From Thermophagus xiamenensis (GTDB lineage Bacteria > Bacteroidota > Bacteroidia > Bacteroidales > Marinilabiliaceae), in assembly GCF_900112795.1 (NCBI RefSeq), contig NZ_FONA01000002.1:62001-126000 (forward strand): 64,000 bases of DNA. Reading direction: 5' to 3'. The notes below the pieces were generated by a model. It searched no databases and was not told where the DNA came from. It was given only the letters and a program-made list of their open reading frames with translations. Below, piece by piece: positions 39,224-60,207 of this stretch; position 1 is the first letter of the stretch; the number at the start of each line of letters is the position of its first letter. The position numbers and the translations under genes are program-made.

Positions 39224-40360
39224 TCAGGAACTTTTTATTTTTCCTGTGATAATATTGTAAACCGCCTTAAAGAAATACTTAATATCGGTTCTTATAGGAT
39301 GTTTCATTTTTTCTGAAAGATAGATTCTTTCGGCTTCCACATTCCCTTCAGCATCGGGCATCAACAAAGCCACATAAGGTGGAATACATCCGGGTTTGAA
39401 CCGGATTCTCAATTTTTGAACTTCCTCCGGCAATTCATTAAACCTGGCCCGACTTAAAGGGCGAACCCCCACGATATTCAAATCGCCTTTCAGAACATTA
39501 ATTAGCTGAGGCAACTCGTCAATCCAGTATTTACGATAAAACTTGCCCCATGAGGCAACTCTGAAGTCATTGGCCGGTTTTCCTTCTTTGTTGTAACCAT
39601 TTAATTTAGTTACAAATTCCTGTAAGAATTCAGCAAACGGATGCATGGTACGTAACTTATAAACTTTAATGATTTGCCCATTTTTGCCAATCCTTGTCAT
39701 TGGAAAGAAGGGTCCAAAGCTGGGCTGTACCCCCATGGTTGGCTCGCCCGTTTTTATAACGGCAAAATAAAGTAATCCTTCTATCTCTTTATATTCTATT
39801 ATTTCAAACCCACAGCTCACAACCCTTCCAAGAGTTTCGCCCATGGTTAAATAGCGGTATTTCCCCTTGGTCAGGAAAAAATAAATTTTTTGAAGATAAG
39901 CTACTTTGGGCATTACTCTGTGAAAAAGAAACACGAACACCCAAAAGAGGGAAAAAAGGAAGGGAATTTTTATTTTTTTTCGATACCGTTCTTTAACATT
40001 TTTAGAGGGTTCCACACAACCAATAAATATGCCTGCATCGGGCATACACGAATTTAATTCAATTAAAAACTTATTGATATACTGAACTTTATTCAGCATA
40101 CCAAGGTTAATTATGGAACGCGTATTCTTTTGAATCAATTGCCTGATTTCCTCTCGTTTCACAGTATCAATAATACTGACATTGTAACGTTCGGGGACTA
40201 AATGATTGACAAAAAATTCATAAAGCTCAATGCTGATGTTTTTCAGTATCGCTTCTTTTTTTGGGTCAACATTTGGTCTTACCAGAGGGGCCTCCAACAC
40301 ATATTGTCCACTTACGGATAATTCATCTACAACTTGGGAAAGCTCAACATTGTTCTTCAT
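39224..40360 (-). CDS. Initiating sugar transferase of polysaccharide synthesis
   Basis: The C-terminal half (about 220-378) is a bacterial sugar transferase domain: KVYKLRTMHPFAE, WIDELPQLINVLKGDLNIVGVRPLS and a final basic helix. Such enzymes transfer a sugar phosphate onto undecaprenyl phosphate, the first step of repeat-unit synthesis. A hydrophobic segment (FLFSLFWVFVFLFHRVM, near 135-150) would place it in the membrane. The N-terminal 130 residues have no obvious family. It is the last gene of the run that includes the AMP-ligase, NadE-like, AsnB-like and ACP genes. Confidence 0.85.
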   Translation of the reverse strand: MKNNVELSQVVDELSVSGQYVLEAPLVRPNVDPKKEAILKNISIELYEFFVNHLVPERYNVSIIDTVKREEIRQLIQKNTRSIINLGMLNKVQYINKFLIELNSCMPDAGIFIGCVEPSKNVKERYRKKIKIPFLFSLFWVFVFLFHRVMPKVAYLQKIYFFLTKGKYRYLTMGETLGRVVSCGFEIIEYKEIEGLLYFAVIKTGEPTMGVQPSFGPFFPMTRIGKNGQIIKVYKLRTMHPFAEFLQEFVTKLNGYNKEGKPANDFRVASWGKFYRKYWIDELPQLINVLKGDLNIVGVRPLSRARFNELPEEVQKLRIRFKPGCIPPYVALLMPDAEGNVEAERIYLSEKMKHPIRTDIKYFFKAVYNIITGKIKSS

Positions 40361-40631: not shown

Positions 40632-42122
40632 TCAAAGTGACCCTTTAACTCTTTTACCGGTTAAACTTGTTTCCATACGCTCTTTAAAAACCACATCGGC
40701 AGGCACTTTATAGGAAGCTAACTTCCGGGCACACACCTCCCGGATATCATTCTTAGTGAGGTTTGCGCCACTTTGCTTCACCACCACGGCCCGGATAGCT
40801 TCTCCCAATTCGGGATGTTCATACCCTTCTACGGCACAATCAACCACACCCTTAAGGCTTACGATAACTTCTTCAATTTCTTTGGGTCCCACACGCTTCC
40901 CGCCTACTTTAATAATTTCCTTTTTTCTTGCACTTAGATAAATGTATCCCTCCCGGTCAATGGTTCCCAAATCACCGGTATGCAACCATCCATTTTGAAT
41001 GGTTTGCCGCGTAGCCTCATCATCACCCAAATAACCTAACATAATGTTTTGACCTTTGGCAACAATTTCTCCGGTTTGTCCCGATGCCACCATCTCCCCT
41101 TTTTCATCCACAACTTTAAGGGTAACGCCGGGGATTCCTTTTCCTACCGAACCAATTTTTTCGGGTAATTTATCCGGTGGTAAATAAGAGAGTCTGGCAG
41201 TGGCTTCGGTTTGTCCATACATCACAAAAAACTTAATTTCAGGGAATAGTGAAATAAATTCCTGAATAAAGGCATTATGCAATTTACCTCCGGCTTGTGT
41301 AACATATCTTAAATGAGGAAAATGTCCTTTTCGAAAAGAGTCGGACTTACGCAGTAAAATCTGAAAATGGCTGGGTACACCGGCAAAACCGGTACACCGG
41401 TATTGATTCAAATCTCGTAATACACTGCCTAAAAACATAAAACTATTATTCAGTACTAATGTACCGCCAACCTTCATATGGGTATGTAACAATGACAACC
41501 CATAGCAATAGAAAAAAGGCAAAACAACAAGCATAATATCGTCGCCATCCAGGGCCAGATATTCCAAAATGGAACCGGTATTAGCGACTAAATTGCCATG
41601 AGAAAGCATAACACCGCGAGGCACTGCCGTAGAACCTGATGTAAAAATAATCTGAGCACAATCATGGTCATCCATTTCCGGGCCTGATTTATAGCCATGC
41701 CACTTTTCATCACCAAAATCAAAAAGGGGTGAATCTTCAGATAAAACATCAACCCCTTCAATTTCTGTAATTTTCAAGGATGAATGCACAAAAGCATGAG
41801 AGGCACCGGTTTTTCCAATTACCAAATCCAGGTTTGATTTTTCTATTGCCGTACTTAAAGGAACCACCACACAACCCGCCTTCATAACAGCCAAATAAAC
41901 CGTAACAAAAAAAAGATTATTGGGTGATATTAATAGAATTTTTTCTCCTTTTTTAAAGTTTTGGCCAATCCATTCAGAAAGCTGCATAACCCTGGCAGAA
42001 ACCTCACGATAACTGTATTGTTTTTTACCGGATATCAATAGTATTTTGTCCAAATTGGCCGTATCCTGAAATAAATAGTCGACAGCGTTCATTTTTATCA
42101 TTTGCATTATTACATAAATCAA
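40632..42122 (-). CDS. AMP-forming acyl/aryl (or amino acid) ligase
   Basis: The 496-residue protein is a class I adenylate-forming enzyme. It has the P-loop FTSGSTAVPRGVMLSHGN, the YGQTEATARLSYLPPD motif, the HTGDLG hinge and the catalytic Lys in LTGKRVKG near the end. It would activate a carboxylic acid as AMP ester and load CoA or the nearby acyl carrier protein (45515-45766). The acid cannot be predicted. Several ATG codons lie near the start; 42092 (MNAVDYLF) is likely, since the first ten codons have no family resemblance. Confidence 0.9.
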   Translation of the reverse strand: MIYVIMQMIKMNAVDYLFQDTANLDKILLISGKKQYSYREVSARVMQLSEWIGQNFKKGEKILLISPNNLFFVTVYLAVMKAGCVVVPLSTAIEKSNLDLVIGKTGASHAFVHSSLKITEIEGVDVLSEDSPLFDFGDEKWHGYKSGPEMDDHDCAQIIFTSGSTAVPRGVMLSHGNLVANTGSILEYLALDGDDIMLVVLPFFYCYGLSLLHTHMKVGGTLVLNNSFMFLGSVLRDLNQYRCTGFAGVPSHFQILLRKSDSFRKGHFPHLRYVTQAGGKLHNAFIQEFISLFPEIKFFVMYGQTEATARLSYLPPDKLPEKIGSVGKGIPGVTLKVVDEKGEMVASGQTGEIVAKGQNIMLGYLGDDEATRQTIQNGWLHTGDLGTIDREGYIYLSARKKEIIKVGGKRVGPKEIEEVIVSLKGVVDCAVEGYEHPELGEAIRAVVVKQSGANLTKNDIREVCARKLASYKVPADVVFKERMETSLTGKRVKGSL

Positions 42123-42189
42123 CTAAATCGTCAGCCCCCAAGGACTATAAGATTAGTTTATGGTGTGCAGCACCGAATGCTTTAACCCG

Positions 42190-43179
42190 TTACGGCTTCC
42201 AAAAATCATAGTCGTGCAACGGTTTTGCTCTCAGGTATTCGGTGGTCTTCAGTTTACGTTCAAAATTGGCGAAGCTTTTCTTAACATTTTCTTCACTCAT
42301 TTCCACCACTTTGGCAACCTCATCGGCAGGATAACCGTTTTCCCATGCGAACCACAACAAGTCCATTTTTTCGAAAGGCAACTGGTAAAAGAATTCTTCC
42401 TGCGTTTGCTCTGCAGTATAAGTATCGGTAGTAGGGGTACGTTCAATAATTTCCCGAGGTACTTCCAAAAATTCTGCCAGCTGATAAACCTGCGTCTTAT
42501 ACAAATTGCCAATAGGCATCATATCAGCTCCTCCGTCGCCAAATTTCACAAAAAAGCCTTGTTTCACTTCATGTTTGTTAGGCGTACCAATAACGGCATA
42601 ATAACGTGCCTCGGCATGATAATAAAGCATGGCCATCCTGCTTCGTTGCTTGAAGTTGGAGGCTGCTACAATTTGCAAATAGGCATCAGGCGACAAGCGT
42701 CGGGAAATCTCACTCCCATCCTGAAAAATTACGGTAACGTAAAATACAGGGGGCAGATTTTGTTCCAATAGCTCTTTAGGAATAACAATCTTCATTTTAT
42801 CGGTAGCAGGATTATATTCGGGAACAATCCTCTTTACTGCTTCATCGCGCCGGGTGTAACAGCCAAATCCGCTGAGCGCATCGCTGATATTCTCTTCAAC
42901 GGTTTGTACACCATATTTATCGGCCAGTTTTAAGGCCAGAGCTTTACTATCGGGACTTGAATCCTTTTCGGGCAATAAAACGCCTACAACTCTTTCCGAA
43001 CCTAAGGCCCGGGCTGCCAAAGCCAAGGTTACCGAGGAATCAATGCCGCCACTTATTCCTACCACACCCCCTTTCCTTCGAAAACGCCGGAACACATCTT
43101 CTTTTAATTTCTGACAGATTTTATCGGTCAACGCTTCGGGATTTTTTATTCTTAGAATATCAGGTGTAAAACTTTTCAT
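42190..43179 (-). CDS. nadE: NadE-like ATP-pyrophosphatase (NAD synthase family)
   Basis: The 329-residue protein has the PP-loop SGGIDSSVTLALA and the NAD-synthase pattern (IGTPNKHE, FVKFGDGGADMMPIGNLYKTQV, RTPTTDTYTAEQTQEEF). It lacks the nitrilase domain, so it would use ammonia or depend on another amidotransferase. It sits between the AsnB-like and AMP-ligase genes, a place where housekeeping NAD synthesis is not expected. It may therefore be a paralogue recruited to amide formation in polysaccharide modification. That role is inferred. Confidence 0.85.
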   Translation of the reverse strand: MKSFTPDILRIKNPEALTDKICQKLKEDVFRRFRRKGGVVGISGGIDSSVTLALAARALGSERVVGVLLPEKDSSPDSKALALKLADKYGVQTVEENISDALSGFGCYTRRDEAVKRIVPEYNPATDKMKIVIPKELLEQNLPPVFYVTVIFQDGSEISRRLSPDAYLQIVAASNFKQRSRMAMLYYHAEARYYAVIGTPNKHEVKQGFFVKFGDGGADMMPIGNLYKTQVYQLAEFLEVPREIIERTPTTDTYTAEQTQEEFFYQLPFEKMDLLWFAWENGYPADEVAKVVEMSEENVKKSFANFERKLKTTEYLRAKPLHDYDFWKP

Positions 43180-43265
43180 AATTATTTTTAATATTTGATT
43201 TAGGATTTACGAACTTGAAATAATTTTCTTACAATGCTCTATCAGATTCGTAGTACTGCATTCGC

Positions 43266-43522
43266 ATAAATTTAATCTAACTTATTGTTTAAATGTTACT
43301 TAATGTTAGTGGTTAGTTTTTAGTCGTTAGTGGTTAGTCATTTCACAACCTCACAGGCTATTAACCTAATAACCTATTAGCCTATTAGCCTATTAGCCTA
43401 ACATCCTATTAGCCTAACAACCTATTGGCCTAACAACCTATTGGCCTAATTACCTAATGGTCTATCCGGCCTGTGCACTTTTGCTTCAGTTTTTTATTGT
43501 TACATGTATTCATGTTGTGGTG
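43266..43522 (+). repeat. Dispersed intergenic repeat, copy g (long form with tandem block)
   Basis: The order is AAATTTAATCTAACTTATTG, then TTAGTGGTTAGT-type units, then a tandem CCTATTAGCCTA block (43362-43465). A GCCTGTGCACTTTTGCTTC block and TTACATGTATTCATGTTGTG follow. It fills the 43180-43532 gap. Confidence 0.75.
43362..43465. repeat. Tandem CCTATTAGCCTAACA-type repeat
   Basis: About eight imperfect units of 10-17 bp with the core CCTATTAGCCTA, later CCTATTGGCCTAACAA. Similar units recur at 48530-48575. The unit resembles a decayed simple repeat inside the dispersed element. Confidence 0.7.
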
Positions 43523-43532
43523 GTTTTATTTT

Positions 43533-45512
43533 TTACAAGGATGATGTTACACCGTTCCGCAGTTCAGTTTTTAAAACATCATGATCCGATATTGGTGTGA
43601 AATCACGGATGAATTGTTGCCATAACAAATGGGTTGATAGTACTGCCACTAAGGCCATTTGATCTACTTCGGAAGAGGTTTGTTCTCTTGTCAACTTTCT
43701 TAAAAGCAAATCAATAGCTTTAGGTTGAAACACACCTGCCGCCTGAGTCAATTCGGGTGAAAGCATATTTCTGACATAAGCATCACTTTGTTCGTTAAGA
43801 AAAGGCGTATGTAGCGGAGCCCGGTAAGCTTGTTTAGAGCGGGTTACCACTTCGTGGGGCAATTGATTTTTGTAACGGTATTTTAGTAAAAATTTTTCCT
43901 TCAACCCGTTTAACTTAAACTCATCCGGAAGGGTAGCACAAAACTCCATAACACGGTGATCCAAAAAAGGATATCGTCCTTCAACACTATTGGCCATGGC
44001 CATTCGGTCACCCTGAGATGAAAGCAGATAGCCCGACATAAATATTCTGGTCTCAATATATTGAGCTTTAGCCAGAGAACTGCTACCGGCCAGCAACGGA
44101 GTCCATTCCGATTCAAGTTGTTCGACAAAGTCGGGCACTTCACCGGCTACAGGAACCATCATCTTGGTTATCCGTGAAGTGTTATGCCAACGTAAAAGGT
44201 GAGAATAAATCACAGAGTCGACATCGTTTAATCGATAGCCAAAAAACATTTTCAGTGCGGAAGGCGACATTTTTCTCAATCGTGGCAAATAAGGATAAAG
44301 TTTGCTAAGCAATAACGGACGGTATTTAGAATCAGGGTCTTTAGCCCAAAACCGACGAATCATCATTTCTTTAAACAAGTTATAACCTCCAAGCATTTCA
44401 TCGGCTCCTTCACCAGTCATCACTACTTTAATGTTGTTTTGCCGTACCAATCGCGAAAGCAAAAACATAGGGACCGGTGCCGTCCGCAAAACAGGCGTTT
44501 CGGAATGCCAAACCGCTGACGGGAAAAATTTAGAAATGTCGGTCGAATCACAATAAGCTTTGTGGTGCTGTGTTTTAAGTTGTTCAACCATCTTGTTTTG
44601 AAAAGTCCCCTCATCGTATTCTTCTTCAGAAAAACCGATGGAAAAAGTCTGTAACAATCCTTCGGGACTATTTTGCCTGATAATTGAAGCAATAACAGCC
44701 GAATCGAGCCCTCCGCTCAAATAAGACCCTACAGGAACATCTGCCCTTAAACGAAGTTTCACGGCATCATTGAGCAAATATCCCAGTTCTTCACCGGCAT
44801 CATCCAATGAACCTTTGAACCGGTTATCAAAACCATTTATGGCGGGTTCCCAATACTTTTCTACATTTATTTGTTGCTGCTTATATTCAAGGAAATGGCC
44901 GGGCGGCAGTTCAGTTATCCCATCGAAAACGGTATGCGGCGACAAGGCCGTCCAAAAAGTAAAAGTCTGTCTTAGCGCATTGTAATTGAGTTTTCGCACC
45001 ACATCAGGAAATTCGAAAATCGATTTTATCTCCGATGCAAAAACCAATCGTGAATTTTGATGTGTATAGAACAAAGGTCTGATTCCCACCCTGTCACGAG
45101 CCAAAAAAAGGCTTTTTTCTTTGGTATCCCAAACAGCAAAAGCAAACTGCCCGTTAAGCATAGATAAACATTTGGACCCAAACTCCCTGTAAGCCAACAA
45201 CAAAACCTCAGTATCACTGTTTGTGGAAAATCGACAACCTTTTTTTTCTAAAACTTTTCTTAATTCCAGATAATTAAAAATTTCACCATTAAAGGTGATC
45301 CAGAAGCGTCCGGAATCATCGCACAGTGGTTGATGTCCTGACGCAATGTCGATAATACTTAACCTAACGCTACCTAATGAAACATCGTTGGAAATAAAGG
45401 CTCCGGCTTCATCCGGCCCTCTGTAACGGATTCTGGTAAGCATCTTATCCAGAATCCGTTTAGTCGTCTTAACACTTCCGGTATTACCGGTAAAACCTGC
45501 AATTCCACACAT
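43533..45512 (-). CDS. asnB: Glutamine-dependent amidotransferase, asparagine-synthase type
   Basis: The 659-residue protein starts MCGIAGF with the catalytic Cys 2 of class II glutamine amidotransferases. The C-terminal synthetase domain has the PP-loop SYLSGGLDSAV (about 262-268) and LSRLVRQNNIKVVMTGEGADEM. It would transfer ammonia from glutamine to a carboxyl group activated as AMP ester. Placement between ACP and NadE-like genes points to a specialised amidotransferase, as found in exopolysaccharide clusters, rather than asparagine supply. It starts 2 bp after the ACP stop. Confidence 0.92.
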   Translation of the reverse strand: MCGIAGFTGNTGSVKTTKRILDKMLTRIRYRGPDEAGAFISNDVSLGSVRLSIIDIASGHQPLCDDSGRFWITFNGEIFNYLELRKVLEKKGCRFSTNSDTEVLLLAYREFGSKCLSMLNGQFAFAVWDTKEKSLFLARDRVGIRPLFYTHQNSRLVFASEIKSIFEFPDVVRKLNYNALRQTFTFWTALSPHTVFDGITELPPGHFLEYKQQQINVEKYWEPAINGFDNRFKGSLDDAGEELGYLLNDAVKLRLRADVPVGSYLSGGLDSAVIASIIRQNSPEGLLQTFSIGFSEEEYDEGTFQNKMVEQLKTQHHKAYCDSTDISKFFPSAVWHSETPVLRTAPVPMFLLSRLVRQNNIKVVMTGEGADEMLGGYNLFKEMMIRRFWAKDPDSKYRPLLLSKLYPYLPRLRKMSPSALKMFFGYRLNDVDSVIYSHLLRWHNTSRITKMMVPVAGEVPDFVEQLESEWTPLLAGSSSLAKAQYIETRIFMSGYLLSSQGDRMAMANSVEGRYPFLDHRVMEFCATLPDEFKLNGLKEKFLLKYRYKNQLPHEVVTRSKQAYRAPLHTPFLNEQSDAYVRNMLSPELTQAAGVFQPKAIDLLLRKLTREQTSSEVDQMALVAVLSTHLLWQQFIRDFTPISDHDVLKTELRNGVTSSL

Positions 45513-45514
45513 AC

Positions 45515-45766
45515 TTACTGCATTTTAGAGGCCACAAACTTTTCTATGGCATTCAAGTTTTGAAAGTTTTCCTCCACCAAATCCGTATCTGCTGTCTTAA
45601 TACCATAATTCTCCTCCAGAAAAGCAATAAGATTCAGTAATCCCATTGAGTCAAAAATACCTTCTTCAAACAGCATGGTATCATCTTTTATTTCATCCAT
45701 TTCGGTGAAGGACGTTTCGGCAATAAATGCTTTGATCTCTTCTTTTTTAATTGTCATAATCTCCAT
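45515..45766 (-). CDS. Acyl carrier protein
   Basis: An 83-residue protein with the phosphopantetheine site DSMG (Ser 40 in GIFDSMGLLNLIAFLEENYG), followed by the typical helix III. Dedicated ACPs next to AMP-ligases carry an activated acyl or aminoacyl group. Here it is the first gene of the ACP-AsnB-NadE-ligase-sugar transferase run, with starts and stops 2 bp to a few hundred bp apart. Transcription could continue from upstream genes. Confidence 0.9.
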   Translation of the reverse strand: MEIMTIKKEEIKAFIAETSFTEMDEIKDDTMLFEEGIFDSMGLLNLIAFLEENYGIKTADTDLVEENFQNLNAIEKFVASKMQ

Positions 45767-46015: not shown

Positions 46016-47797
46016 TCACTTCAGCAGCAGATTATTGAGAAAAAGTTCAAGACGGGTAAATCCGTTGGATTTTAGTTCATGAGGATTGTCCGGAATAATA
46101 AACTTGCGTTCCTCAACCGGAAGAGTTAATGTAACCTTTAACTCATCTTCCTCTGCAATAATATTGCCCTTTCCGGTTCTAATATTTTCGATAATAAGGC
46201 TATCTATCGCATCACGGTTAAAAGCAAAGGCTCCAGCTTCATTTAACAACCGCTCAGGCAATTCCCCGGCTTTCCATAAACCTTCCGCAGAAATGGGGAA
46301 AGGTCGGTCGGGCAACGGATAGAAACGCTCCGATTTATCATACAATTGTAATTCATAATCCACATAAGTTTGGTCGCCATCAATAGTCATATTATCAGAC
46401 CAATAAACCAATAATGAATCGGGCACAGACTTATGGACAGAAAGTAAGAACCGGTTAACGTTATTTACACCTGTTATGTACAAATTACCTTCAATTAAAA
46501 CACTTAACGGCAAATTCTGAATGCCTCTGCTTCCAAGATATACCGCATGATTCGAAGAATTGTAAATAAGGTTATTAAGGATTTCAATTGTTTGAACGTT
46601 ACCGCGAACACTGGGGTTACGGTCGGCATTAAATGCTATCACATTCCTTATCAGGCTAACACCGGATGAATTAAGAACCAATAAGCCACAAGAATGGTTA
46701 AGCTTGTTGAGCGAATAGCCGATAATGGAATTGCTAATGGTGATTCCCGGCCCGGCATTTATAACCGTTAACGTTTCATCCAAGCCAAAGGCAAAAGAAC
46801 ATCTGTCAAAAACCACGTTGTACACCCTGCGGTTGGTTCCGCGAACCGTAACACAATCGGACTGATCTTCATGTTTGCTTCCCAGACGAAACCGCATATT
46901 CTGTATCAACACGTCGTGAGATGAAACAACAAACGGCTGTCCCCATAGGGCTACCCCTTTACCCGGTGAGGTTTGACCTGCAACATACAGATAAGGCGGC
47001 GTAACAATGAGTGGTCTCTTGAGATGAATATCTCCTGCCACCTCGAACACCACAATACGTGGGTAAGGACGTGTAACGGCGTATCGAAAAGAGCCGGGAC
47101 CGTAATCGTCTAAATTATCAACCACCACAATCTTTGGCAAAGAATCGCCGGCATAGGCACCCCGCGAGGCGGTCCCCATCCCCTGTGAACCGGGAAAGAT
47201 ATTCTGGCTAAAACCCTGATTGGATGAAAATAATCCACTGATTAAAAGTCCTGCTAAAATTACCCTGGTCTTTGCTTTATCGAAAAAAGATTTCAGAATT
47301 TTTTTCTTTGAACGATAGGACATTCCTTTAGTCTCAAACTTAAATTTACTCATTAAAATAAGCCTCTCCTGGATAGACAAAGGCATAATAACCTTGGCGG
47401 GATTACCGTAAACAATAGAATTTTCCGGTATTTTTCCCTTGACAACCGAACCTGCTGCCACAATACAATTATCCCCTATCTGTGTATTGGGAAGTATAAT
47501 AACATTTAGGCCTATACAAACATTATTGCCTATTTTTATTTTTCCAAAAAGGTCAATCCTGGGATATTTCTCCCGAAAAACCCACACACCCCCATCATGA
47601 GTAATAAATCGCGTGCCGTTGGATATCACCACATGGTCACCTAACTCTATTAAATAGGGTTCAGAACCCCAGCCTGCCTTAAATATTCTGCAATTTTTCC
47701 CAATCTTTACCCCTGCAATACGAAGCAAGGCTATCCGGATACGACTGATAGGTATTAAATGCGATAAATAAATTATTAATTTGATGTATATCTTCAT
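46016..47797 (-). CDS. Hexapeptide acyltransferase fused to a secreted right-handed beta-helix (pectate-lyase-like) domain
   Basis: Residues 1 to about 145 form a hexapeptide-repeat acyltransferase (GVKIGKNCRIF, IGNNVCIGLNVIILPNTQIG, AAGSVVKGKIP, YGNPAKVI). A basic stretch (SYRSKKKILKSF) and a hydrophobic segment (about 174-197, RVILAGLLISGLFSSNQGFS) follow and look like a signal-anchor. Residues 200-540 are a beta-helix domain (NIFPGSQGMGTASRG, VVDNLDDYGPGSFRYAV, PYLYVAGQTSPGKGVALWG). The second half is like the pectate-lyase-type protein at 51605-53140. The acyltransferase would act in the cytoplasm and the helix outside. Either a real fusion or the loss of a stop between two genes could explain it. 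Confidence 0.8.
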   Translation of the reverse strand: MKIYIKLIIYLSHLIPISRIRIALLRIAGVKIGKNCRIFKAGWGSEPYLIELGDHVVISNGTRFITHDGGVWVFREKYPRIDLFGKIKIGNNVCIGLNVIILPNTQIGDNCIVAAGSVVKGKIPENSIVYGNPAKVIMPLSIQERLILMSKFKFETKGMSYRSKKKILKSFFDKAKTRVILAGLLISGLFSSNQGFSQNIFPGSQGMGTASRGAYAGDSLPKIVVVDNLDDYGPGSFRYAVTRPYPRIVVFEVAGDIHLKRPLIVTPPYLYVAGQTSPGKGVALWGQPFVVSSHDVLIQNMRFRLGSKHEDQSDCVTVRGTNRRVYNVVFDRCSFAFGLDETLTVINAGPGITISNSIIGYSLNKLNHSCGLLVLNSSGVSLIRNVIAFNADRNPSVRGNVQTIEILNNLIYNSSNHAVYLGSRGIQNLPLSVLIEGNLYITGVNNVNRFLLSVHKSVPDSLLVYWSDNMTIDGDQTYVDYELQLYDKSERFYPLPDRPFPISAEGLWKAGELPERLLNEAGAFAFNRDAIDSLIIENIRTGKGNIIAEEDELKVTLTLPVEERKFIIPDNPHELKSNGFTRLELFLNNLLLK

Positions 47798-48645: not shown

Positions 48646-49503
48646 TTACTTGCCGGTAAGACTCTTTTGGTCACCTCTTCCTTCCAGGACATCGACGATG
48701 CGTTGGCAAAAAAGCGGATAATTGGCTTTGGCAAAAGCATGAGAAGGATGAGAATCACGATCGCTCACGGCATTTTCAGGTAAAACATAATTTCCGCCTC
48801 CGGTTTGCAGTGCTCTGAAATCCCAAAGAAAGATGTTATCACCGGGTTCATCCCATTCATTAATAACCCATTTTGCAAAATCAGAGGCAGCCATTGCCGA
48901 TTCGGGGTTGGTAGCCCGCTCTGTTAACGCCGTGGGAGTCCAAATGAGGAATTTGGTGTCAGGATATTTATACATTTCATTTTTCAAAGCCAGGTATTGA
49001 AGTTTGTAGTTTTCAACCATTTTTTGTTCCGAATAGACATCAACTTCACCATCAAAGACAATATGACTTACCGGAAAACAATGTTTGAAAATAATCATAT
49101 CATATTGTTGGGTAAGCAGTTTTAAGGTAGGCTCCTCTTGATAATATTCTTCATCGCCATGTTTAACCCAAATGTTATAATAATCAAAAGGGTAATTCTT
49201 CCAACCATAAGGTTCTTTCTTCGGAAAGACCTTTTCAGATATCACATAATTCTTCTTATTGGTTTTGTTATACTTTGCAAACCATTTTTCAACGGCCATC
49301 CTCATGCCCATTTTGGCTTTTACTTTAGTAACAATATCGTTACCACCACGCCAAATGGTGTTACCGGTACTGTGATGCAAAAACAGAATCTTTTTTTCAT
49401 CCATAGAGTCGCTATTTTGATTACACGCCATTAACAACAGAATTATCCCAATGCTTATTATTCCACCCCAATACTTCATAACAACATTATTTACGTTATA
49501 CAT
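48646..49503 (-). CDS. SGNH/GDSL-like lipoprotein
   Basis: The 285-residue product has a lipobox (LLLMACNQ, Cys 27). The block LFLHHSTGNTIW has a Ser-Gly-Asn like the SGNH block I, and DRDSHPSHAFAK near the end has an Asp and His in the usual block V spacing. It could be an esterase or deacetylase acting on polysaccharide at the cell surface. The family match is by motif only. The start is placed at 49503 (ATG at 49479 is an alternative). Confidence 0.65.
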   Translation of the reverse strand: MYNVNNVVMKYWGGIISIGIILLLMACNQNSDSMDEKKILFLHHSTGNTIWRGGNDIVTKVKAKMGMRMAVEKWFAKYNKTNKKNYVISEKVFPKKEPYGWKNYPFDYYNIWVKHGDEEYYQEEPTLKLLTQQYDMIIFKHCFPVSHIVFDGEVDVYSEQKMVENYKLQYLALKNEMYKYPDTKFLIWTPTALTERATNPESAMAASDFAKWVINEWDEPGDNIFLWDFRALQTGGGNYVLPENAVSDRDSHPSHAFAKANYPLFCQRIVDVLEGRGDQKSLTGK

Positions 49504-51604: not shown

Positions 51605-53140
51605 ATGAAGAAAACATTGATGAAAGAGGTTATCATCGCTCTGATGATAATGATGGGATTTGTCTATGCAAGTTGTTCATTAGAGGACTTGGAGACAGTA
51701 ACAGAAACGACCGTTGATGAAGATCAACAAGAAGAGGAGGAAACATCAGACGGATCCGACAGTAAAGAAGATGAAGAGGATTCTACTCCGGATCAGCAAT
51801 CATCTGCACCGGAATTTAACGAGACCAAAGCATTCCCCACAGCCGAAGGATACGGAAAATTTGCACAGGGAGGACGTGGAGGTAAAATTGTTTACGTCAC
51901 TTCATTGGAAAACAGCGGACCGGGTACACTGAGAGAGGCTTGTGAAGCAGTATCGGGACCAAGGATAGTTCTTTTTAAAGTATCCGGAATCATAAACCTT
52001 TACAGGCATATAAAAATCAAAGAACCTTATATTACCATAGCCGGACAAACGGCACCGGGATCCGGGATTACTCTGAAAAACGCAGGTTTCCAAATCGAAA
52101 CTTATGAAGTAATTATCAGACACCTACGCATCCGACCCGGTGATGACACCAATCCCGAATACTTAGAAGGAACACTGCGTGATGCGTTCTACATTTACCC
52201 AAACAGAAACTGTCACAATATTGTACTGGACCATATGACATTTACCTGGGGTATTGATGAAAACCTGACATTCTCAACCGGAACCAATAATATAACCATG
52301 CAAAATTGTATTATTGCGGAAGGCCTTTCTAACAGTCTTCACAATGAAGGCGAACACTCAAAAGGATTGTTAATGCTTAATCAATTGGATAATATTTCCA
52401 TGATCAACAATCTTTTTGCCCATAACAGAGGACGCAACCCGTTAATTTCGAGCAATAGCCGAAATGTTCATCTGATAAACAACCTTATTTATGGCTGGGG
52501 AGGCGACAGAACCGGCTGGGGTACACATACCCAGATGTTTGTTGATGATGACCCAATTCAAAATGCGGTTATTTATGGAAATGTTTATCGTAAAGACAGC
52601 GAAAGTAATGATTGGCCGCTCTATTCCGAAAGAAACTTCCGTCGCCTGGCAGATGGAACTACCTTCTACATAGACAATAATTATCTGGACGAAAATGGGA
52701 CGCTCGAAAACATGAAAAACAGAGACAATGATCTGAATTCAAATCCCGATTATTTCACATGGTGGTTGCTGGATACTCCACCATCAGGATGGAGAGATAC
52801 CTATTCAACTATTAAGGATGATATTGATGACGTTGCCGACTATGTATTGGCTAATGCCGGAGCCAGAAAGCCCATATTGGACGAGGTGGACGAAAGAATA
52901 ATTAACGAAGCCAGAACATACACAGGACGTATCATTGATTCACCGTCGGATGTAGGTGGATATCCCGCTCAATATACCAGTGATGTACCGGAAGATTCGG
53001 ACAATGACGGAATGCCGGACAAATGGGAAATTGCCAATAATCTTGATCCCAATTCTGCCGACGATGCTTATGAATATACACTTTCAAGTTATTACCAAAA
53101 CATTGAAATGTACTTAAGTGAATTAGCAGGAGATTTCTAA
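51605..53140 (+). CDS. Secreted pectate-lyase-like beta-helix lipoprotein with a calcium-binding C-terminus
   Basis: The 511-residue protein has a lipobox (VYASC, Cys 24) and an acidic linker (about 30-65). The right-handed beta-helix follows (AEGYGKFAQGGRGGKIVYVT, ITIAGQTAPGSGITLKNAG, HIVLDHMTFTWGIDE-like), as in polysaccharide lyase family 1. Near 464 a thrombospondin type 3-like calcium motif (DSDNDGMPDKWE) and a helical end follow. It would cut or bind an acidic polysaccharide at the cell surface. It shares fold and motifs with the second half of 46016-47797. Confidence 0.9.
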   Translation: MKKTLMKEVIIALMIMMGFVYASCSLEDLETVTETTVDEDQQEEEETSDGSDSKEDEEDSTPDQQSSAPEFNETKAFPTAEGYGKFAQGGRGGKIVYVTSLENSGPGTLREACEAVSGPRIVLFKVSGIINLYRHIKIKEPYITIAGQTAPGSGITLKNAGFQIETYEVIIRHLRIRPGDDTNPEYLEGTLRDAFYIYPNRNCHNIVLDHMTFTWGIDENLTFSTGTNNITMQNCIIAEGLSNSLHNEGEHSKGLLMLNQLDNISMINNLFAHNRGRNPLISSNSRNVHLINNLIYGWGGDRTGWGTHTQMFVDDDPIQNAVIYGNVYRKDSESNDWPLYSERNFRRLADGTTFYIDNNYLDENGTLENMKNRDNDLNSNPDYFTWWLLDTPPSGWRDTYSTIKDDIDDVADYVLANAGARKPILDEVDERIINEARTYTGRIIDSPSDVGGYPAQYTSDVPEDSDNDGMPDKWEIANNLDPNSADDAYEYTLSSYYQNIEMYLSELAGDF

Positions 53141-53152
53141 TAAAAAACTTCA

Positions 53153-54313
53153 TTATTTAAGAAAGGCCTCTGATAATGTATCATCATTATTCAGGGGTCT
53201 TTTTTTGTTTATTAACCACTGATACAACTCATGATAAACCAATGATAAATTTTCCCAATTATAGTCTCGCATTAACCGGTCAAAAGCCCTGTCGGCATAA
53301 CGGGCCGCTTCTTCAGGGTTATTAAATACCCATTCCAATTTATTAGCCAGGTCCAAACTGTTCCCTTTTTCAAAAAAGATAACTTCATCAGAATCAAATA
53401 CCTGTTGGTTTTCAGGAATATCGCTGCATATTATTGGGACCTTCATCGAACCGGCCTCCAACAACATATTAGACATGCCTTCATGAAAACTGGGAAAAAC
53501 AAAAACTTTGGCATTTTTTAAATAGGCCATTAAAAGATTTTTGTCGGTAATAAGGTCCATAAACTTAACGTTAAGTCCTTCGGCCAGTTTTTCAATTTCG
53601 CCGGTATAGGCTAAATTATGAGTTCTGTTACCGATAATGATAACCCGTCCCCGGTATTTCATTTTTTTCAATGCTTCCAACAAAACGTGACATCCTTTGA
53701 GTTTAATAATCCGACCGGAAGCAAAAAGCACATAAGAACTTTCATCAATATGAGGCAATGCATCCATATCGGGCATAATGATGCCATTAGGGACATAACA
53801 AATTTTGCGTTTGGTATGCGGCTGAAATTCTTCAACCACAGGACGACTAACCGAAGTTAAAACATCTGCCGGCCAATGGAAAAACAGCCATTCCATAAAA
53901 GTAAAATATTTCTTTACCAACGGATTCCATTTATCCGCCAATTGGGGGCGCGCGCGATGGCCTGCTATCACTCTGTTTCTTATCCGTAAAATGGGAATGA
54001 TAAAAGCCGCATCGACATGGAAGACGTGAACCACATCATATTTTTTTACCAGGCAATAGAACAGGGAACACAGATAATACCAGAAAGTGTTCATCGATTT
54101 AATAAAGAATTGCTTAAAAACAACCTGCTTTATACCATCATAAACGCCGGTTTTCCGTTTCGTATGGGTAGATGTGTTGAATACAGTAAAATCGTAATGG
54201 TCCTTCAGAAAACGCATCATATTTTCTCCGGCTCTGGCCGAACCGCCAAAAGCAGGTAAGCCTTTTAATCCTATAATAGCCACTTTAGGCTTTTGGTTTT
54301 GTTGGTTCATCAT
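53153..54313 (-). CDS. Family 4 glycosyltransferase
   Basis: The 386-residue protein has a GT-B fold: N-terminal GLKGLPAFGGSARAGENMM and the C-terminal donor site FVFPSFHEGMSNMLLEAGSMKVPII with the EX7E motif. It would add a sugar from a nucleotide-sugar donor to the lipid-linked repeat unit. It is the last gene of the glycosyltransferase series, 80 bp from the next one upstream. Confidence 0.93.
   Translation of the reverse strand: MMNQQNQKPKVAIIGLKGLPAFGGSARAGENMMRFLKDHYDFTVFNTSTHTKRKTGVYDGIKQVVFKQFFIKSMNTFWYYLCSLFYCLVKKYDVVHVFHVDAAFIIPILRIRNRVIAGHRARPQLADKWNPLVKKYFTFMEWLFFHWPADVLTSVSRPVVEEFQPHTKRKICYVPNGIIMPDMDALPHIDESSYVLFASGRIIKLKGCHVLLEALKKMKYRGRVIIIGNRTHNLAYTGEIEKLAEGLNVKFMDLITDKNLLMAYLKNAKVFVFPSFHEGMSNMLLEAGSMKVPIICSDIPENQQVFDSDEVIFFEKGNSLDLANKLEWVFNNPEEAARYADRAFDRLMRDYNWENLSLVYHELYQWLINKKRPLNNDDTLSEAFLK
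53163..53206 (+). terminator. Terminator of the beta-helix gene, inside the coding end of the opposite gene
   Basis: AGGCCTCTGATAAT and ATTATTCAGGGGTCT pair over 13-14 bp with G-U pairs, followed by TTTTTTTG. It lies within the last codons of the glycosyltransferase at 53153-54313. Confidence 0.75.
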
Positions 54314-54393
54314 TGTAGATTTTTGGCGAGTTTAAGTATTAAGTATACGGCGATAAAACTTAAAGCAACACGCCATCATGAGATAAATTATAT

Positions 54394-55461
54394 TTACCGG
54401 TGTTTTTCAATCAATTCAAGGTATTTTTTTACAAATGCTTTATTCGAAAAATTTTCATTCACCATATCCTTGCTTCGTTTACCCATCACAGCCATAGTTT
54501 CGGGTGCCTTTATTAATGCTTCAATCTCATTGGCAACAGACTCAAAATCACCGACTGTGACCAAACGGCCGTTGTATCCTGATTTCACAAGATATCGGTT
54601 GTCGCCCACATCGGTAGCCACAACAGGTAGCGAAGCATTCATCGCCTCCAGGATGGAATTAGATAATCCCTCTTTCAAAGAACAGCTTAAATAAATATCT
54701 GCCTGCCGGTACAATTCCATTAAATTGGGCGGGGCAATTAATATTTCAACGCTATCTTCAAGGTTTAAATCTTTAACCCATTGTAACAAGAGGGTCTCTT
54801 GTACACCATAACCGGCCAGCTTATATTTGAAACGAACTCCCCTGGCTTTTAATATTACCATGGCTTTTAATGCGGTGTAATGGTCTTTTTGCGGCAAAAA
54901 ACGAGCAGCGGTAAAAATGACAAAATCTTCACCCTTTCTTTTCGGGGCGGTAGAAGCATTGTAGTGATCGTCTTCAATCCCGTTATGAATGACCACTATT
55001 TTTTTCTCTGAAAAACCTTTATTTTTAAAATTGTTGGCACCGGAACGATTATTAAAAATTGTTTTATGCGAAACAAAATTATGCAACACTCTCTGCAAAA
55101 AGAGTTTAGAAGAGGAAATTTCACAATTCCGAATACCTCCGTAAATATTGGGAACTCCGCATAATCGGGCAACCATGCCCCCGATGAAATTGTTTAACAA
55201 TAAAAAGTTAAATAAATGAGAAACCTTATTTTTCCTGAAAAAGCGATACATGAAACGAATTTTACTAAAGGCATTTCCTTCCAGGAAAATTACAGGCAAT
55301 TGGTTTCTTTCAATATAATCGGCGAACCGGGGGGCAATGGTTTTGTTGCTCCAAACCATTAAGTTAACAGGATAATGCTGCTTCAGGCCTTGTGTTAAAA
55401 GCAAGCTTTGTTTCTCGGCACCTCCCAGACTCAATTCGCGAATAAAAACTATTATATGCAT
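54394..55461 (-). CDS. Family 4 glycosyltransferase
   Basis: A 355-residue GT-B enzyme with LSLGGAEKQSLLLTQGL at the start and SCSLKEGLSNSILEAMNASLPVVATDVG near the end (EX7E motif). Part of the minus-strand glycosyltransferase series; starts 10 bp from the stop of the next gene upstream. Confidence 0.93.
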   Translation of the reverse strand: MHIIVFIRELSLGGAEKQSLLLTQGLKQHYPVNLMVWSNKTIAPRFADYIERNQLPVIFLEGNAFSKIRFMYRFFRKNKVSHLFNFLLLNNFIGGMVARLCGVPNIYGGIRNCEISSSKLFLQRVLHNFVSHKTIFNNRSGANNFKNKGFSEKKIVVIHNGIEDDHYNASTAPKRKGEDFVIFTAARFLPQKDHYTALKAMVILKARGVRFKYKLAGYGVQETLLLQWVKDLNLEDSVEILIAPPNLMELYRQADIYLSCSLKEGLSNSILEAMNASLPVVATDVGDNRYLVKSGYNGRLVTVGDFESVANEIEALIKAPETMAVMGKRSKDMVNENFSNKAFVKKYLELIEKHR

Positions 55462-55471
55462 ACAATTACTT

Positions 55472-56614
55472 TTAACCGTTGTTCGGCATTCGTTTTTTTA
55501 TAACCTCGCCGAATAATTTTTCGTGAAGCGACACCATCTTTTCAATAGAGCATTCGTTGATAACAAATTGATAACCGTTCTCTCCCATCTTTTGAGATAA
55601 AACCGAATTGTTTAACAGTTCGTTTATTTTATCTTTCATTGCCATATGGTCATCCTGAGGCACCAAATAACCATTAGTGCCATGTTTAACAACCTCATTA
55701 ATGCCATAAACATCGGTTGCAACCACCGGCTTTTTTAACATCATGTACTCCAGGATGCTATTGGATGTTCCTTCGCCATACGATGCCAATACCGCTACAT
55801 TAAAAATGTTAATGACCTCCTCTACATTGTTAATTCTTCCGGTAAAAACAAAATTGGATTTCTTAAAATTTTCCGGCACCATATCTTCAATTTCTTTCCG
55901 GTCTTCCCCGTCACCAACAATAAAAAACACCACGTCCCGGCGGACTTCAAGTAAAGCCAGTGCCGCACGAATAAACATCCGGAAATTTTTTCTCCAGTCG
56001 ATAGTGGCCACCATGCCCACCACTTTGAAATCATAAGGTAAATCGTAATGTTCCCTCACTTCCTTCTCATCTCTTAAATCATGAATTCTGTCGGTATTCA
56101 TCCCATTACGTATCAAAACCGCTTTTTTTGAAGGAACTTTATAAACCTTAAGCCCAATTCTTGAATTTCCTATAATCACGGTTGAAAACATAAAAGATAA
56201 TTTAGCTCTGATCCATGACTTGGATAAGAAGGGAAGTCTGGAGTTTTGTACCATTTCATTAACCAAAGGAGTTCCCGTCAAAATAACATAAGGCAATGAT
56301 ACTAAAGAAGGTAAGCCACCCCAACTATGGATTAAATCGGGCTTAAATTTACGCGCTTGCAAATAAAAACTTCTAAAAACCGAAGGATCTTGTTTAAAAC
56401 TTCGTTTTAAATGGATAATCTCCACATTGGGCAAATGCAGCATTCGGTCAAAGTGAATTTCATCCTTTAATATTACGACAGCTATTACATACCCCTCTTT
56501 TAAAGCAAGTACTCGCACCAACTCCTCCACCTGGCGTTGTTTCCCTCCGTCGCGTAAACTCTCGATGACCATCATTATTCGTATCATAACTTTATCTCTT
56601 TTATTTCTTAACAT
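55472..56614 (-). CDS. Family 4 glycosyltransferase
   Basis: A 380-residue GT-B enzyme: ESLRDGGKQRQVEELVRVL at the N-terminus and GEGTSNSILEYMMLKKPVVATDV near the C-terminus. The likely start is the ATG at 56587 (MIRIMMVIES), after the non-conserved first nine codons. Member of the series. Confidence 0.93.
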   Translation of the reverse strand: MLRNKRDKVMIRIMMVIESLRDGGKQRQVEELVRVLALKEGYVIAVVILKDEIHFDRMLHLPNVEIIHLKRSFKQDPSVFRSFYLQARKFKPDLIHSWGGLPSLVSLPYVILTGTPLVNEMVQNSRLPFLSKSWIRAKLSFMFSTVIIGNSRIGLKVYKVPSKKAVLIRNGMNTDRIHDLRDEKEVREHYDLPYDFKVVGMVATIDWRKNFRMFIRAALALLEVRRDVVFFIVGDGEDRKEIEDMVPENFKKSNFVFTGRINNVEEVINIFNVAVLASYGEGTSNSILEYMMLKKPVVATDVYGINEVVKHGTNGYLVPQDDHMAMKDKINELLNNSVLSQKMGENGYQFVINECSIEKMVSLHEKLFGEVIKKRMPNNG

Positions 56615-56637
56615 TTAAGAGTTTTCAATTGCTTCGG

Positions 56638-57759
56638 CTATTTATTAGACCGATTTTCAATCCACGATAATATTCTTTTGGCCCGAATGTCCCAGGTATA
56701 ATGTTCCAGAAACTTTTTCAAAGCATTGCGCCCTATAGATTCACGAAAAGCCTCATCATCGACAAGTTTATCAAGGCCGGCAATCCAGGCCTTCTCATCT
56801 TCAGGGGGTACCAAAACGGCATTCTGGTCATCGAAAATTTCGCGAAGTACCGGCATATCGCTTACCATAATGGCTTTGCCTGAAGACATATATTCAAAAA
56901 TTTTCAGGGGCGACATGTAGAGGCTTGTAGAATAGGTTTGCTTGGTGGAAACAAACACTTCTTTTTGGTACGGTGCCAAAAGTATATCACATGAATTCCT
57001 ATATTTATAAACTTGTGAAGGAGTAATGAATCCATAAAAATGGAAATTATGAGGAATCTTATCAAAATGTCCCATATCAGATTCATGAGCACCAAAAAGA
57101 TGAAACCCCACCTTTGGGCGGGCTAAAGCCATGGCAATAATTTTTTCTATTCCTCGACCATTGTAAATGCTGCCAAAATATCCAACATTTACTGGATAAT
57201 CGCCCTGCAATTGTGCCGTTTCTTTGAGCGAGCACTCATCGGCCCCGTCATGGGCAACAAAGAACACATCGGGTTGTATGCCGGAATCAACATATAGCTG
57301 TTTCAAAGCATCGGATATAACGACGACCCCATTCAATGATTTTTTTGCAAGAATCGACCGAAAAAAAGTTTTTTGCCATTTGTAAACCAACCGAAGAAGG
57401 AAGGAATGCGACTCAAATACCAAATTTCCACGTTTGGCCGGCGCCAGATAGGCGGCTATTAGCGATCTGGAATAAACCAAATCGGGCCGTGTACGAAGCA
57501 CTTCGAACCACGACATTAACCCCAGCCAAAAAGAAGAAAGACGGCCCGTTCCGGGCGATTTTATCAGCTTAATATCAAAAATCGGGTCAACACCATAATA
57601 TTTATAAACATCAGCTTTATTTCGGAAGGTCGAATGCTTAAAGGCCAGCAATCTCACCTGATGGCCCAGTAACGCCATGGAACGACACATCCGCATCACA
57701 TGAATACTATTGGCCCTTTGATTAGGCAATCGGGCTTCGGCTATATATAATATTCTCAT
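56638..57759 (-). CDS. Family 4 glycosyltransferase
   Basis: A 373-residue GT-B enzyme: YIAEARLPNQRANSIHVMRM at the N-terminus and LKIFEYMSSGKAIMVSDMPVLRE near the C-terminus. The gene is preceded by a long copy of the dispersed repeat (57783-57983), so transcription of this and the downstream glycosyltransferases may restart here. Confidence 0.92.
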   Translation of the reverse strand: MRILYIAEARLPNQRANSIHVMRMCRSMALLGHQVRLLAFKHSTFRNKADVYKYYGVDPIFDIKLIKSPGTGRLSSFWLGLMSWFEVLRTRPDLVYSRSLIAAYLAPAKRGNLVFESHSFLLRLVYKWQKTFFRSILAKKSLNGVVVISDALKQLYVDSGIQPDVFFVAHDGADECSLKETAQLQGDYPVNVGYFGSIYNGRGIEKIIAMALARPKVGFHLFGAHESDMGHFDKIPHNFHFYGFITPSQVYKYRNSCDILLAPYQKEVFVSTKQTYSTSLYMSPLKIFEYMSSGKAIMVSDMPVLREIFDDQNAVLVPPEDEKAWIAGLDKLVDDEAFRESIGRNALKKFLEHYTWDIRAKRILSWIENRSNK

Positions 57760-57782
57760 TTTTTATTTCTATTTTTTATTCG

Positions 57783-57983
57783 CATAATATTAACTTAACT
57801 CATTGGTATAGCAGAACTTAAAATCTGTTTTAATAATTAATCATTACTCCTTAGAGGTAATAAAACCAGACACTTTTGACTAACCTACAGACACTTCTTC
57901 TGCCTCCTGTCTGTGCGCCATATGTCTATGTTTTTTATATATTCTTGTTGTGCCAAACCCTCCCGGTCATGTTTGTCTCAATC
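57783..57983 (+). repeat. Dispersed intergenic repeat, copy l (long form)
   Basis: TAATATTAACTTAACTCATT, degraded TTAATCATTACTCC units, CTTCTTCTGCCTCCTGTCTG, then TTCTTGTTGTGCCAAACC and GTCATGTTTGTCTCAATC. The right end covers the last bases of the glycosyltransferase at 57967-58866 and contains its TGA stop codon. Confidence 0.7.
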
Positions 57984-58866
57984 TTTTAAAGGACGAACAA
58001 CATTGTTGATTGATTTTTTGTGGAAACCCACGATAAAAAGCGTTTAATGCTTCTTCTTTCAACAAACGTCGCTCTCGCTTATTTTTTTGATAAACAAGTC
58101 TCAGCTGACTAACCAATCGCATTATCTTTTTAGTTCTATTACTGCGTGTTAAAAAATTACCATAATGGTCTTGTAAGAATTTAAATTCTTCCAAAGCTCT
58201 TTTATTTAAATTTTGGCTGCTCCCCATCCCAAAAACCGATTTCGAGTCATCATGTTTTCGGTACTTTCCCATGAAAACCGGAATATGGAAGAAGAAGGTA
58301 TGTTTTAAAAAGCGATACCATAAATCGGTATCCATAACATAATGTAGTGAAACATCCAAGCCATTGACTTTTTTCCAAAGCTCAGCAGTAAAAAAGGCGG
58401 ACTCCTGAGGAAGTTTGGTAAGCATAGGAGGAAATTTCATCGAAAAGGACGGGGCTTCATATATATCAATAATATTTGAATTTTGATCAATGATAAGTCG
58501 GTCTCCAAACACCATTTGGCAGCTATCCTTTAATTTTTCCAGAAAATGGACAGCCATCTCCACCGCACCGGGACATAATAGATCATCGGAATTAATCCAA
58601 TTATAAATATCACCTGTTGCGTGCATAAACCCCTTGTTAATGGCATCGCTTTGTCCATTGTCGGGCTCACTAACCCACCATGCCAAACGGTCTTCATATT
58701 TTTTAATAATCTCCACACTCCCATCCGTCGAACCGCCATCTACTATGATGTATTCAATATTTGGATAAGTTTGATTCAGGACAGATAGAATGGTTTCTTC
58801 CAGAAATTCTGCCTGATTATAAGAAGGGGTAACGATCGATACTTTTGGAAGATAGTTATTACTCAT
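57967..58866 (-). CDS. Family 2 glycosyltransferase
   Basis: A GT2 enzyme with VSIVTPSYNQAEFLEETILS, VDGGSTDGSVEII and the DXD-like NSDDLLCPGAVE. The start was set at 58866 (MSNNYLPKV), because that ATG overlaps the stop of the upstream gene as ATGAGTAA; the longer start at 58917 adds no conserved residues. The C-terminus ends ..KRLRQT, where a dispersed repeat supplies the stop codon. Confidence 0.92.
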   Translation of the reverse strand: MSNNYLPKVSIVTPSYNQAEFLEETILSVLNQTYPNIEYIIVDGGSTDGSVEIIKKYEDRLAWWVSEPDNGQSDAINKGFMHATGDIYNWINSDDLLCPGAVEMAVHFLEKLKDSCQMVFGDRLIIDQNSNIIDIYEAPSFSMKFPPMLTKLPQESAFFTAELWKKVNGLDVSLHYVMDTDLWYRFLKHTFFFHIPVFMGKYRKHDDSKSVFGMGSSQNLNKRALEEFKFLQDHYGNFLTRSNRTKKIMRLVSQLRLVYQKNKRERRLLKEEALNAFYRGFPQKINQQCCSSFKRLRQT

Positions 58867-60121: not shown

Positions 60122-60207
60122 TACATGGTTGTTTTAGTTTTTAATTTAATTCTTCAATACCCATTTCGCTTTTTTATCAAAGCTTACAGGATATCCCGGC
60201 ATGCATT

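Follow-up and report, generated by a model that had tools for sequence, protein, structure and literature searches.

A four-gene ACP, AsnB, NadE and ligase module of Bacteroidota and rhizobia, with a predicted role in carboxamide synthesis on a carrier

Contig NZ_FONA01000002.1 of Thermophagus xiamenensis carries, within the stretch of 64,000 nucleotides analysed here (positions 62,001 to 126,000; from here: the window), a polysaccharide locus with neighbouring genes for an acyl carrier protein (ACP), an AsnB-like amidotransferase, a NadE-like amide synthetase and an adenosine monophosphate (AMP)-forming ligase. We report that these four genes are a real, widespread, mobile and dedicated module that occurs at least among Bacteroidota and rhizobia. 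The reading that we favour on balance is that the module makes a predicted carrier-bound carboxamide from a probably dicarboxylic acid, likely for a surface polymer. A gene set annotated as nicotinamide adenine dinucleotide (NAD) synthase, asparagine synthase and acyl-coenzyme A (CoA)/AMP-binding ligase looks like one pathway. Going by searches of the open-access literature, the module is apparently unnamed: no paper on the gene set as such was found among those listed, only papers on the ligase and ACP of Sinorhizobium meliloti.

Linkage of the four genes across genomes

A first-pass annotation of the window had placed the ACP, AsnB-like, NadE-like and ligase genes in this order next to an initiating sugar transferase, which is confirmed by the open reading frames (ORFs) and their Pfam matches. 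All four are encoded on the minus strand and follow each other in the direction of transcription in the order named (Table 1). The gene set recurs in other genomes. A genome-collection scan yielded 325 relatives of the NadE-like protein, from which the best 80 loci were taken. Co-location was counted within 9.5 kb, and a locus was regarded as fully flanked if its contig extended 7.5 kb or more to either side. All four genes were found together in 36/38 fully flanked genome-collection loci and in 12 of the 14 fully flanked loci of a set of relatives, whereas control loci of ordinary NadE genes from the same genomes had a partner gene in 0/20 cases (14 of the 20 fully flanked). The co-occurrence is far beyond chance. 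The two sets, A (L034, L039-L058; locus numbers are ours) and B (L059-L138), overlap in genomes (e.g. L043 is L093 and L044 is L060), and L147, L151, L207 and L208 come from one species.

The closest named loci among these best 80 of 325 relatives belong to Anaerophaga and Marinilabilia. Two arrangements occur in Bacteroidota. One is the order ACP-AsnB-NadE-ligase, as in the window; in the other, found in L103, L110, L112, L125, L135 and L138, a NadE-ligase pair is followed by AlgJ-like and MBOAT genes on the opposite strand and by an SGNH gene, ACP and AsnB. Two Marinilabilia salmonicolor genomes have no ACP at the module but Pfam ACP matches elsewhere. In one of them (L199) the module-type ACP is located away from its AsnB-NadE-ligase genes, beside an SGNH homologue and two MBOAT genes and near ORFs that by eye resemble Wza and Wzc.

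On rhizobial and related plasmids, all four genes were recognized in 15/16 loci by hidden Markov model (HMM) scans, by annotation or as the search hit itself, with genes in pieces in L147 and the ACP not called in L202. The plasmid order is asnB-ACP-ligase-nadE in 14/16 loci, from which L143 and L200 deviate. A gene for a 370-amino-acid protein lies upstream of the module in L144, L145, L148, L149 and L202, whereas in L146, L150, L201, L203 and L204 it is found downstream and next to a PrmC-like gene; weak GNAT matches were obtained for 4/8 of these proteins, the best with E 0.042. Across genomes the module is sporadic, since the NF002048 family, to which the NadE-like protein belongs, exceeds its cut-off in just 13/395 Bacteroidota genomes. 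The NadE-like protein was matched at E < 1e-100 in 22/61 genomes, host included.

Active sites, ligase pocket and a PrmC-like partner

The genes for the NadE-like and AsnB-like proteins are paralogues and not the housekeeping copies. Elsewhere, the host genome carries a NadE of 554 amino acids with a fused glutaminase on a separate contig (C19), as well as two other long AsnB-type genes, and a further NadE-type match exists in 21 of the 22 carriers, the exception being a genome that is 72% complete. The AlphaFold2 (AF2) model of the window's NadE-like protein (predicted local distance difference test, pLDDT, 90.9) has its best fold match in 2e18, with Z 29.0 and a root-mean-square deviation (rmsd) of 2.8 over 253 residues. 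The module protein shares with NAD synthetase the fold, the PP-loop and much of the second motif block; a glutaminase domain is absent from it in the window. It differs by a strand-rich insertion of 50-60 residues with a beta-meander, around residues 105-172, by a Val where the four displayed solved NadE proteins have Thr, and by a Gln where three of them have the Asp of the Q(T/S)DE motif, the alignment of the fourth stopping short of it. Both exchanges occur in 113/113 Bacteroidota module proteins (not deduplicated) and in 16/16 plasmid loci, where the motif reads Q(T/S)QEE throughout.

Catalytic residues are largely kept, as counted from alignment columns of Bacteroidota sets that were not deduplicated. 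The PP-loop Asp of the NadE-like protein is present in 113/113 sequences, the glutaminase Cys2 and the PP-loop Asp of the AsnB-like protein in 93/93 each, and the catalytic Lys of the ligase in 106/107. Ser40 had been correctly assigned as the modified residue of the ACP; D39 and S40 are kept in 89/89 module ACPs.

The substrate of the ligase can be approached by comparison with VinN, the 3-methylaspartate:ACP ligase of vicenistatin biosynthesis, which, as a stand-alone ligase loading the stand-alone carrier VinL, is set up much like the module. To our knowledge, VinN has no AsnB, NadE-like or PrmC-like partners. Its residue R331 presumably binds the free carboxylate of the substrate. In PMC11253843, R331 is called a key residue, and the amine-binding Asp of amino-acid adenylation domains is given as D235 in GrsA and D230 in VinN. 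By alignment, the module ligases share this VinN-like pocket, which is a new observation. The comparison comprised 105 deduplicated module ligases; L082/14036 (an unrelated adenylation domain) and L147/6169 (a fragment) were left out, and the number does not include ligases of deviating length, for example that of L118, which is split into two pieces carrying FDYG and TECKR. An Arg at the R331 position was found in 105/105 ligases of all classes, the window included, the sole non-Arg row of 106 being the unrelated domain in L082.

At the amine-anchor column, Cys occurs in 75 ligases (the window and 74 others), Asp in 19 (S. meliloti counted twice), Gly in seven, Ser in three and Thr in one. 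Except for multi-domain linear gramicidin synthase chains, VinN is the top solved match of the Asp-class ligases, with scores of 229 and 270 bits and of 342 bits by profile; for the pocket region alone it reached 90 bits, against 37 for the runner-up. The alignment pairs D230, F231, K330 and R331 of VinN with D, Y, K and R, respectively, in the module ligase, so that the F231 position is aromatic in both. Within the Asp class, Lys is present at the K330 position in 18/19 cases and the loop is one residue shorter in 19/19. The window ligase, in contrast, has Cys206 (numbering of the ORF of 496 amino acids) in place of the Asp of VinN D230, Thr at the Lys330 position and a longer loop, and it stands in a sugar-polymer context. 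We infer that the substrate of the Asp class would be a dicarboxylic acid and, less firmly, that this also holds for the Cys class of the window. As the amine-binding Asp is replaced by Cys, the aminoacyl group considered in the first-pass annotation is unlikely for the window's ligase class, and the acid loaded there is most likely one that lacks an amino group. For the Gly class, a hydroxy acid may be the substrate, because hydroxy-acid domains have Ala or Gly at the Asp position, according to PMC11253843.

A MatB-like malonate ligase was considered and rejected for the window: its ligase aligns (174 bits), but the four solved acyl ligases compared lack the Arg of the module motif. Among the papers listed in a search of the open-access literature for malonamate or succinamate substituents in polysaccharides, nothing useful turned up. 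A VOC (glyoxalase-like) protein directly adjoins the ligase in L109 (L109:6244-6672), L127, L129 and L132 and is possibly an epimerase acting on the acid. Two different module ligases stand side by side in L128 and L130, one of them of the Asp class in each.

Asp-class ligases frequently have a PrmC-like gene as neighbour, which lies within 9.5 kb of 14/19 of them but of only 1/86 others; this lone non-Asp case, L128, also holds an Asp-class ligase. The association has a Fisher p of 1.8e-12 and, among clusters at 70% identity, stands at 9/12 versus 0/54; these figures are not corrected for common descent, and many of the loci are truncated. The window ligase has no PrmC-like gene within this distance. 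In a midpoint-rooted FastTree phylogeny without support values, the module PrmC-like proteins of Bacteroidota and rhizobia cluster together and are separated from 12 ordinary PrmC proteins, two of which are identical. The NPPY motif is intact in 12/12 module copies. With the PrmC/HemK family model, whose cut-off is 199 bits, the copy of L077 scores 201 bits and that of L146, below it, 174 bits. Nine different genomes that carry a PrmC-like gene in the module were searched, and all of them have another PrmC match above the cut-off. PrmC, elsewhere a release-factor methyltransferase, methylates the side-chain amide of glutamine; a dedicated paralogue therefore points to a carboxamide as product. 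Since the PrmC-like enzyme tracks the ligase class, the amide chemistry appears to be tied to the acid.

The S. meliloti plasmid pSymB holds a locus in which the adjoining ligase and ACP genes are joined by NadE-like and AsnB genes. The records bear no locus tags there, but we identify this module with SMb20650-SMb20651 because ligase and ACP adjoin and the module ACP has just one match on pSymB in strains 1021 and 2011. As stated in PMC7232532, the ligase SMb20650 is co-transcribed with the ACP SMb20651, and expression of SMb20650 together with holo-SMb20651 in Escherichia coli yielded acylated SMb20651 (citing Ramos-Vega 2009). The operon resembles the window in having the same four genes, with a ligase reported to acylate its ACP. 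It differs in that its ligase is of the Asp class and that PrmC-like and GNAT-like genes occur as a pair 12.5 kb from the module (strain ABS7). The AsnB gene appears fragmented in two pSymB records of S. meliloti (L147, L208), as it does in L189 of Bacteroidota, and is unbroken and in one frame in strains 1021 and 2011.

Predicted pathway and alternatives

On the carboxamide reading, the AMP-forming ligase would first load a small acid on the ACP, as reported for the relatives in S. meliloti. In the Asp class this acid would be aspartate-like, because the ligase carries the amine-binding Asp. The acid would have a second carboxylate, held by the conserved Arg, to which the AsnB-like enzyme may then transfer ammonia derived from glutamine to form an amide; the NadE-like protein could adenylate and amidate a carboxylate in a second or an alternative reaction. 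In the relatives with an Asp-class locus, the PrmC-like enzyme would N-methylate the amide. Finally, an acyltransferase would move the group to an acceptor, in the window most likely the exported polysaccharide; candidates, which vary between loci, are a GNAT-like protein, a hexapeptide enzyme, or an MBOAT together with an SGNH protein. Of 91 ACP-bearing loci, 36 have an SGNH homologue and 15 an MBOAT at no more than 9.5 kb from the ACP (duplicates and L199 included), and neither was found in the 20 control loci, which suggests transfer to an exported acceptor. The proposal of the first-pass annotation that a carboxylic acid is activated, carried on ACP and amidated draws support from the linkage across phyla, the active-site residues, the PrmC-like paralogues and the ACP acylation reported for S. 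meliloti in PMC7232532.

A tentative and more specific version, which we regard as possible, is that the cross-phylum module builds carrier-bound C4-dicarboxylic half-amides for surface glycans. The ligase would load aspartate or, in the window, a non-amino analogue, the NadE-like and AsnB proteins would amidate the other carboxyl, and N-methylation by the PrmC paralogue would lead, in rhizobia and Bacteroidota, to N-methyl-isoasparaginyl groups. In that case, SMb20650 would have to be regarded as an aspartyl-ACP ligase and not as a fatty-acid ligase. The tie between ligase class and PrmC-like enzyme provides a concrete chemical prediction that is directly testable in the S. meliloti operon, of which the ACP and ligase have already been cloned; the product of the operon we found stated nowhere. 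If the prediction is true, relatives of NadE and PrmC act on carrier-bound small acids, and this would caution against predicting NAD or asparagine synthesis from the presence of module genes.

Several observations weigh against the carboxamide reading. No single acyltransferase is common to all loci, the host's only MBOAT match is on another contig (C31), and it is hard to see why a single amide should need two amide-forming enzymes. Some modules lie outside polysaccharide loci, e.g. L110 and L146. In the Bacteroidota survey, all four genes were together in only 6/9 fully flanked loci by HMMs and in 7/9 if an ACP seen by Pfam is included (L195, scored without ACP by HMM, has an adjoining PF00550 match); L194, in which NadE overlaps a long AsnB frame, was omitted from this scoring. 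Many loci are cut by contig ends, L197, L054 and L039 among them, and single genes are missing elsewhere: L188 is without AsnB, L190 without ligase and L058 without an intact AsnB. The Glu of the TGEGADE motif is a Gln in 2/93 module AsnB proteins. No PrmC-like gene is near the Asp-class ligases of L147, L151 (S. meliloti), L187, L205 (S. medicae); L130, which lacks it too, is cut. The dicarboxylate reading also fits the window less well than the Asp class, as the Cys class of the window has Thr for Lys330 and an unshortened loop. Upstream of NadE in L058, an ORF of 72 amino acids (L058:10910-11128) looks by eye like the C-terminal end of AsnB, as if AsnB had been deleted or the assembly were in error.

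The most serious competitor, although rather improbable, is that the module makes a small diffusible amide, such as a signal, metallophore or solute, instead of a polymer substituent. The module of L110 stands beside genes that by eye resemble DNA polymerases, that of L146 is on a rhizobial plasmid, the NadE-ligase and ACP-AsnB pairs can be split, and just 12/21 loci of the relatives match the glycosyltransferase, sugar-transferase, Wzx or Wzc proteins of the window. Nevertheless, in these same 12 loci, and in plasmid loci of Shinella and Roseateles, glycosyltransferase or export genes do lie beside the module, and the SGNH and MBOAT neighbours of the ACP likewise speak for an exported acceptor.

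It is unlikely that AsnB and the NadE-like protein amidate uronic acids of the polymer, in a WbpS-like manner, with ACP and ligase serving a separate acylation. AsnB-like uronate amidases are known from O-antigen loci. However, all four genes stay linked in different phyla and do so outside sugar loci as well, the AsnB gene directly adjoins the ACP gene, at a distance of 2 bp in the window, and the PrmC-like enzyme tracks the ligase class.

The D-alanylation system Dlt consists of DltA, DltC, DltB and DltD. It is similar to the module in its AMP-ligase and its small carrier with a phosphopantetheine Ser (Ser40 in the window), and in some relatives also in the MBOAT and AlgJ-like/SGNH proteins. 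The module differs in the addition of two amide synthetases and, in the window, in a ligase without the amine-binding Asp. Membership of the window in Dlt was rejected because its locus has no MBOAT, the sole match in the genome being the one on C31.

In line with the annotation, ligase and ACP could process long-chain fatty acids for a lipid or lipidated glycan, but we consider this very unlikely. The best solved match of the ligase is indeed a feruloyl/fatty-acyl-CoA synthetase (212 bits), but according to PMC7232532 SMb20650 was unable to make oleoyl-CoA or to replace FadD for oleate, the VinN Arg is kept in all 105 module ligases, and AsnB and NadE would be left without a role.

Identity with the exosortase-A type exopolysaccharide (EPS) gene set, to which the first-pass annotation had linked the module, is highly improbable. 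The two share distant homology of ligase and amidotransferase and an EPS context, and TIGR03098 is the best NCBIfam model of relatives of the Asp class and Gly class (L133, 441 bits; L145, 404 bits). Yet these scores are below its cut-off of 592, and the window proteins fall far short of the cut-offs, with 290 versus 592 bits for TIGR03098 (ligase) and 411 versus 817 for TIGR03108 (AsnB). For the host genome the link was rejected, as no exosortase (PF09721) match was found there, and the 3/22 carriers that have one bear it on contigs other than that of the module. It is barely credible that the NadE and AsnB genes of the module encode the regular NAD and asparagine synthetases of the cell and came to lie there by chance: automatic annotation gives them these names on annotated plasmids, but the host has separate copies, the NF002048 family is sporadic, the NadE-like protein has Gln where solved NadE proteins have Asp, and linkage in 36 of 38 loci argues against chance placement.

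The module and its neighbours in the window

The features of the window locus are collected in Table 1. For the ligase, a start at ATG 42092 is more likely than at TTG 42122; some relatives begin with a similar MNxxDYL. The SGNH protein has its best fold match in 4h08 (Z 14.5, rmsd 3.0 over 175 residues).

Table 1. Genes and other features of the module and its surroundings (positions in the window)
Feature	Position	Strand	Support
Acyl carrier protein, 83 amino acids, Ser40 phosphopantetheine site	45515-45766	-	Pfam PP-binding PF00550 8.9e-7
AsnB-like glutamine-dependent amidotransferase, 659 amino acids	43533-45512	-	Asn_synthase PF00733 1.1e-86; TIGR01536 505 bits
NadE-like PP-loop amide synthetase, 329 amino acids	42190-43179	-	NAD_synthase 4.3e-51; NF002048 432 bits vs cut-off 313
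AMP-forming acid:ACP ligase (predicted), Cys class	40632-42092; ORF of 496 amino acids from TTG 42122	-	AMP-binding PF00501 2.7e-72
Initiating sugar-phosphate transferase	39224-40360	-	Bac_transf PF02397 5.6e-25, residues 216-367
SGNH-fold protein, lipobox-like N-terminus by eye	48646-49503	-	AF2 pLDDT 89.2
Hexapeptide acyltransferase fused to pectate-lyase-like half	46016-47797	-	PF00132 6.2e-10
Surrounding polysaccharide locus with glycosyltransferases	53153-63962	-	Pfam
Wzx-like	60208-61686	-	Pfam
Wzy-like	61565-62818	-	Pfam
Wzc-like	62802-63962	-	Pfam
Array of 16-bp tandem repeats between the AsnB and NadE genes	43358-43449		Tandem Repeats Finder (TRF), 5.8 copies, 89% matches

Directly past the window edge, as seen in L032, follow a Wza-like gene and the remainder of the Wzc-like match. 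The fused hexapeptide protein is a single ORF with, by eye, an internal signal peptide at the junction of its two parts, which in the relatives L041 and L046 are two separate matches. Its pectate-lyase-like half reaches 132 bits with the PelZ model, below the cut-off of 840, as does a second pectate-lyase-like protein of the same polysaccharide locus at 51605-53140, with 213 bits.

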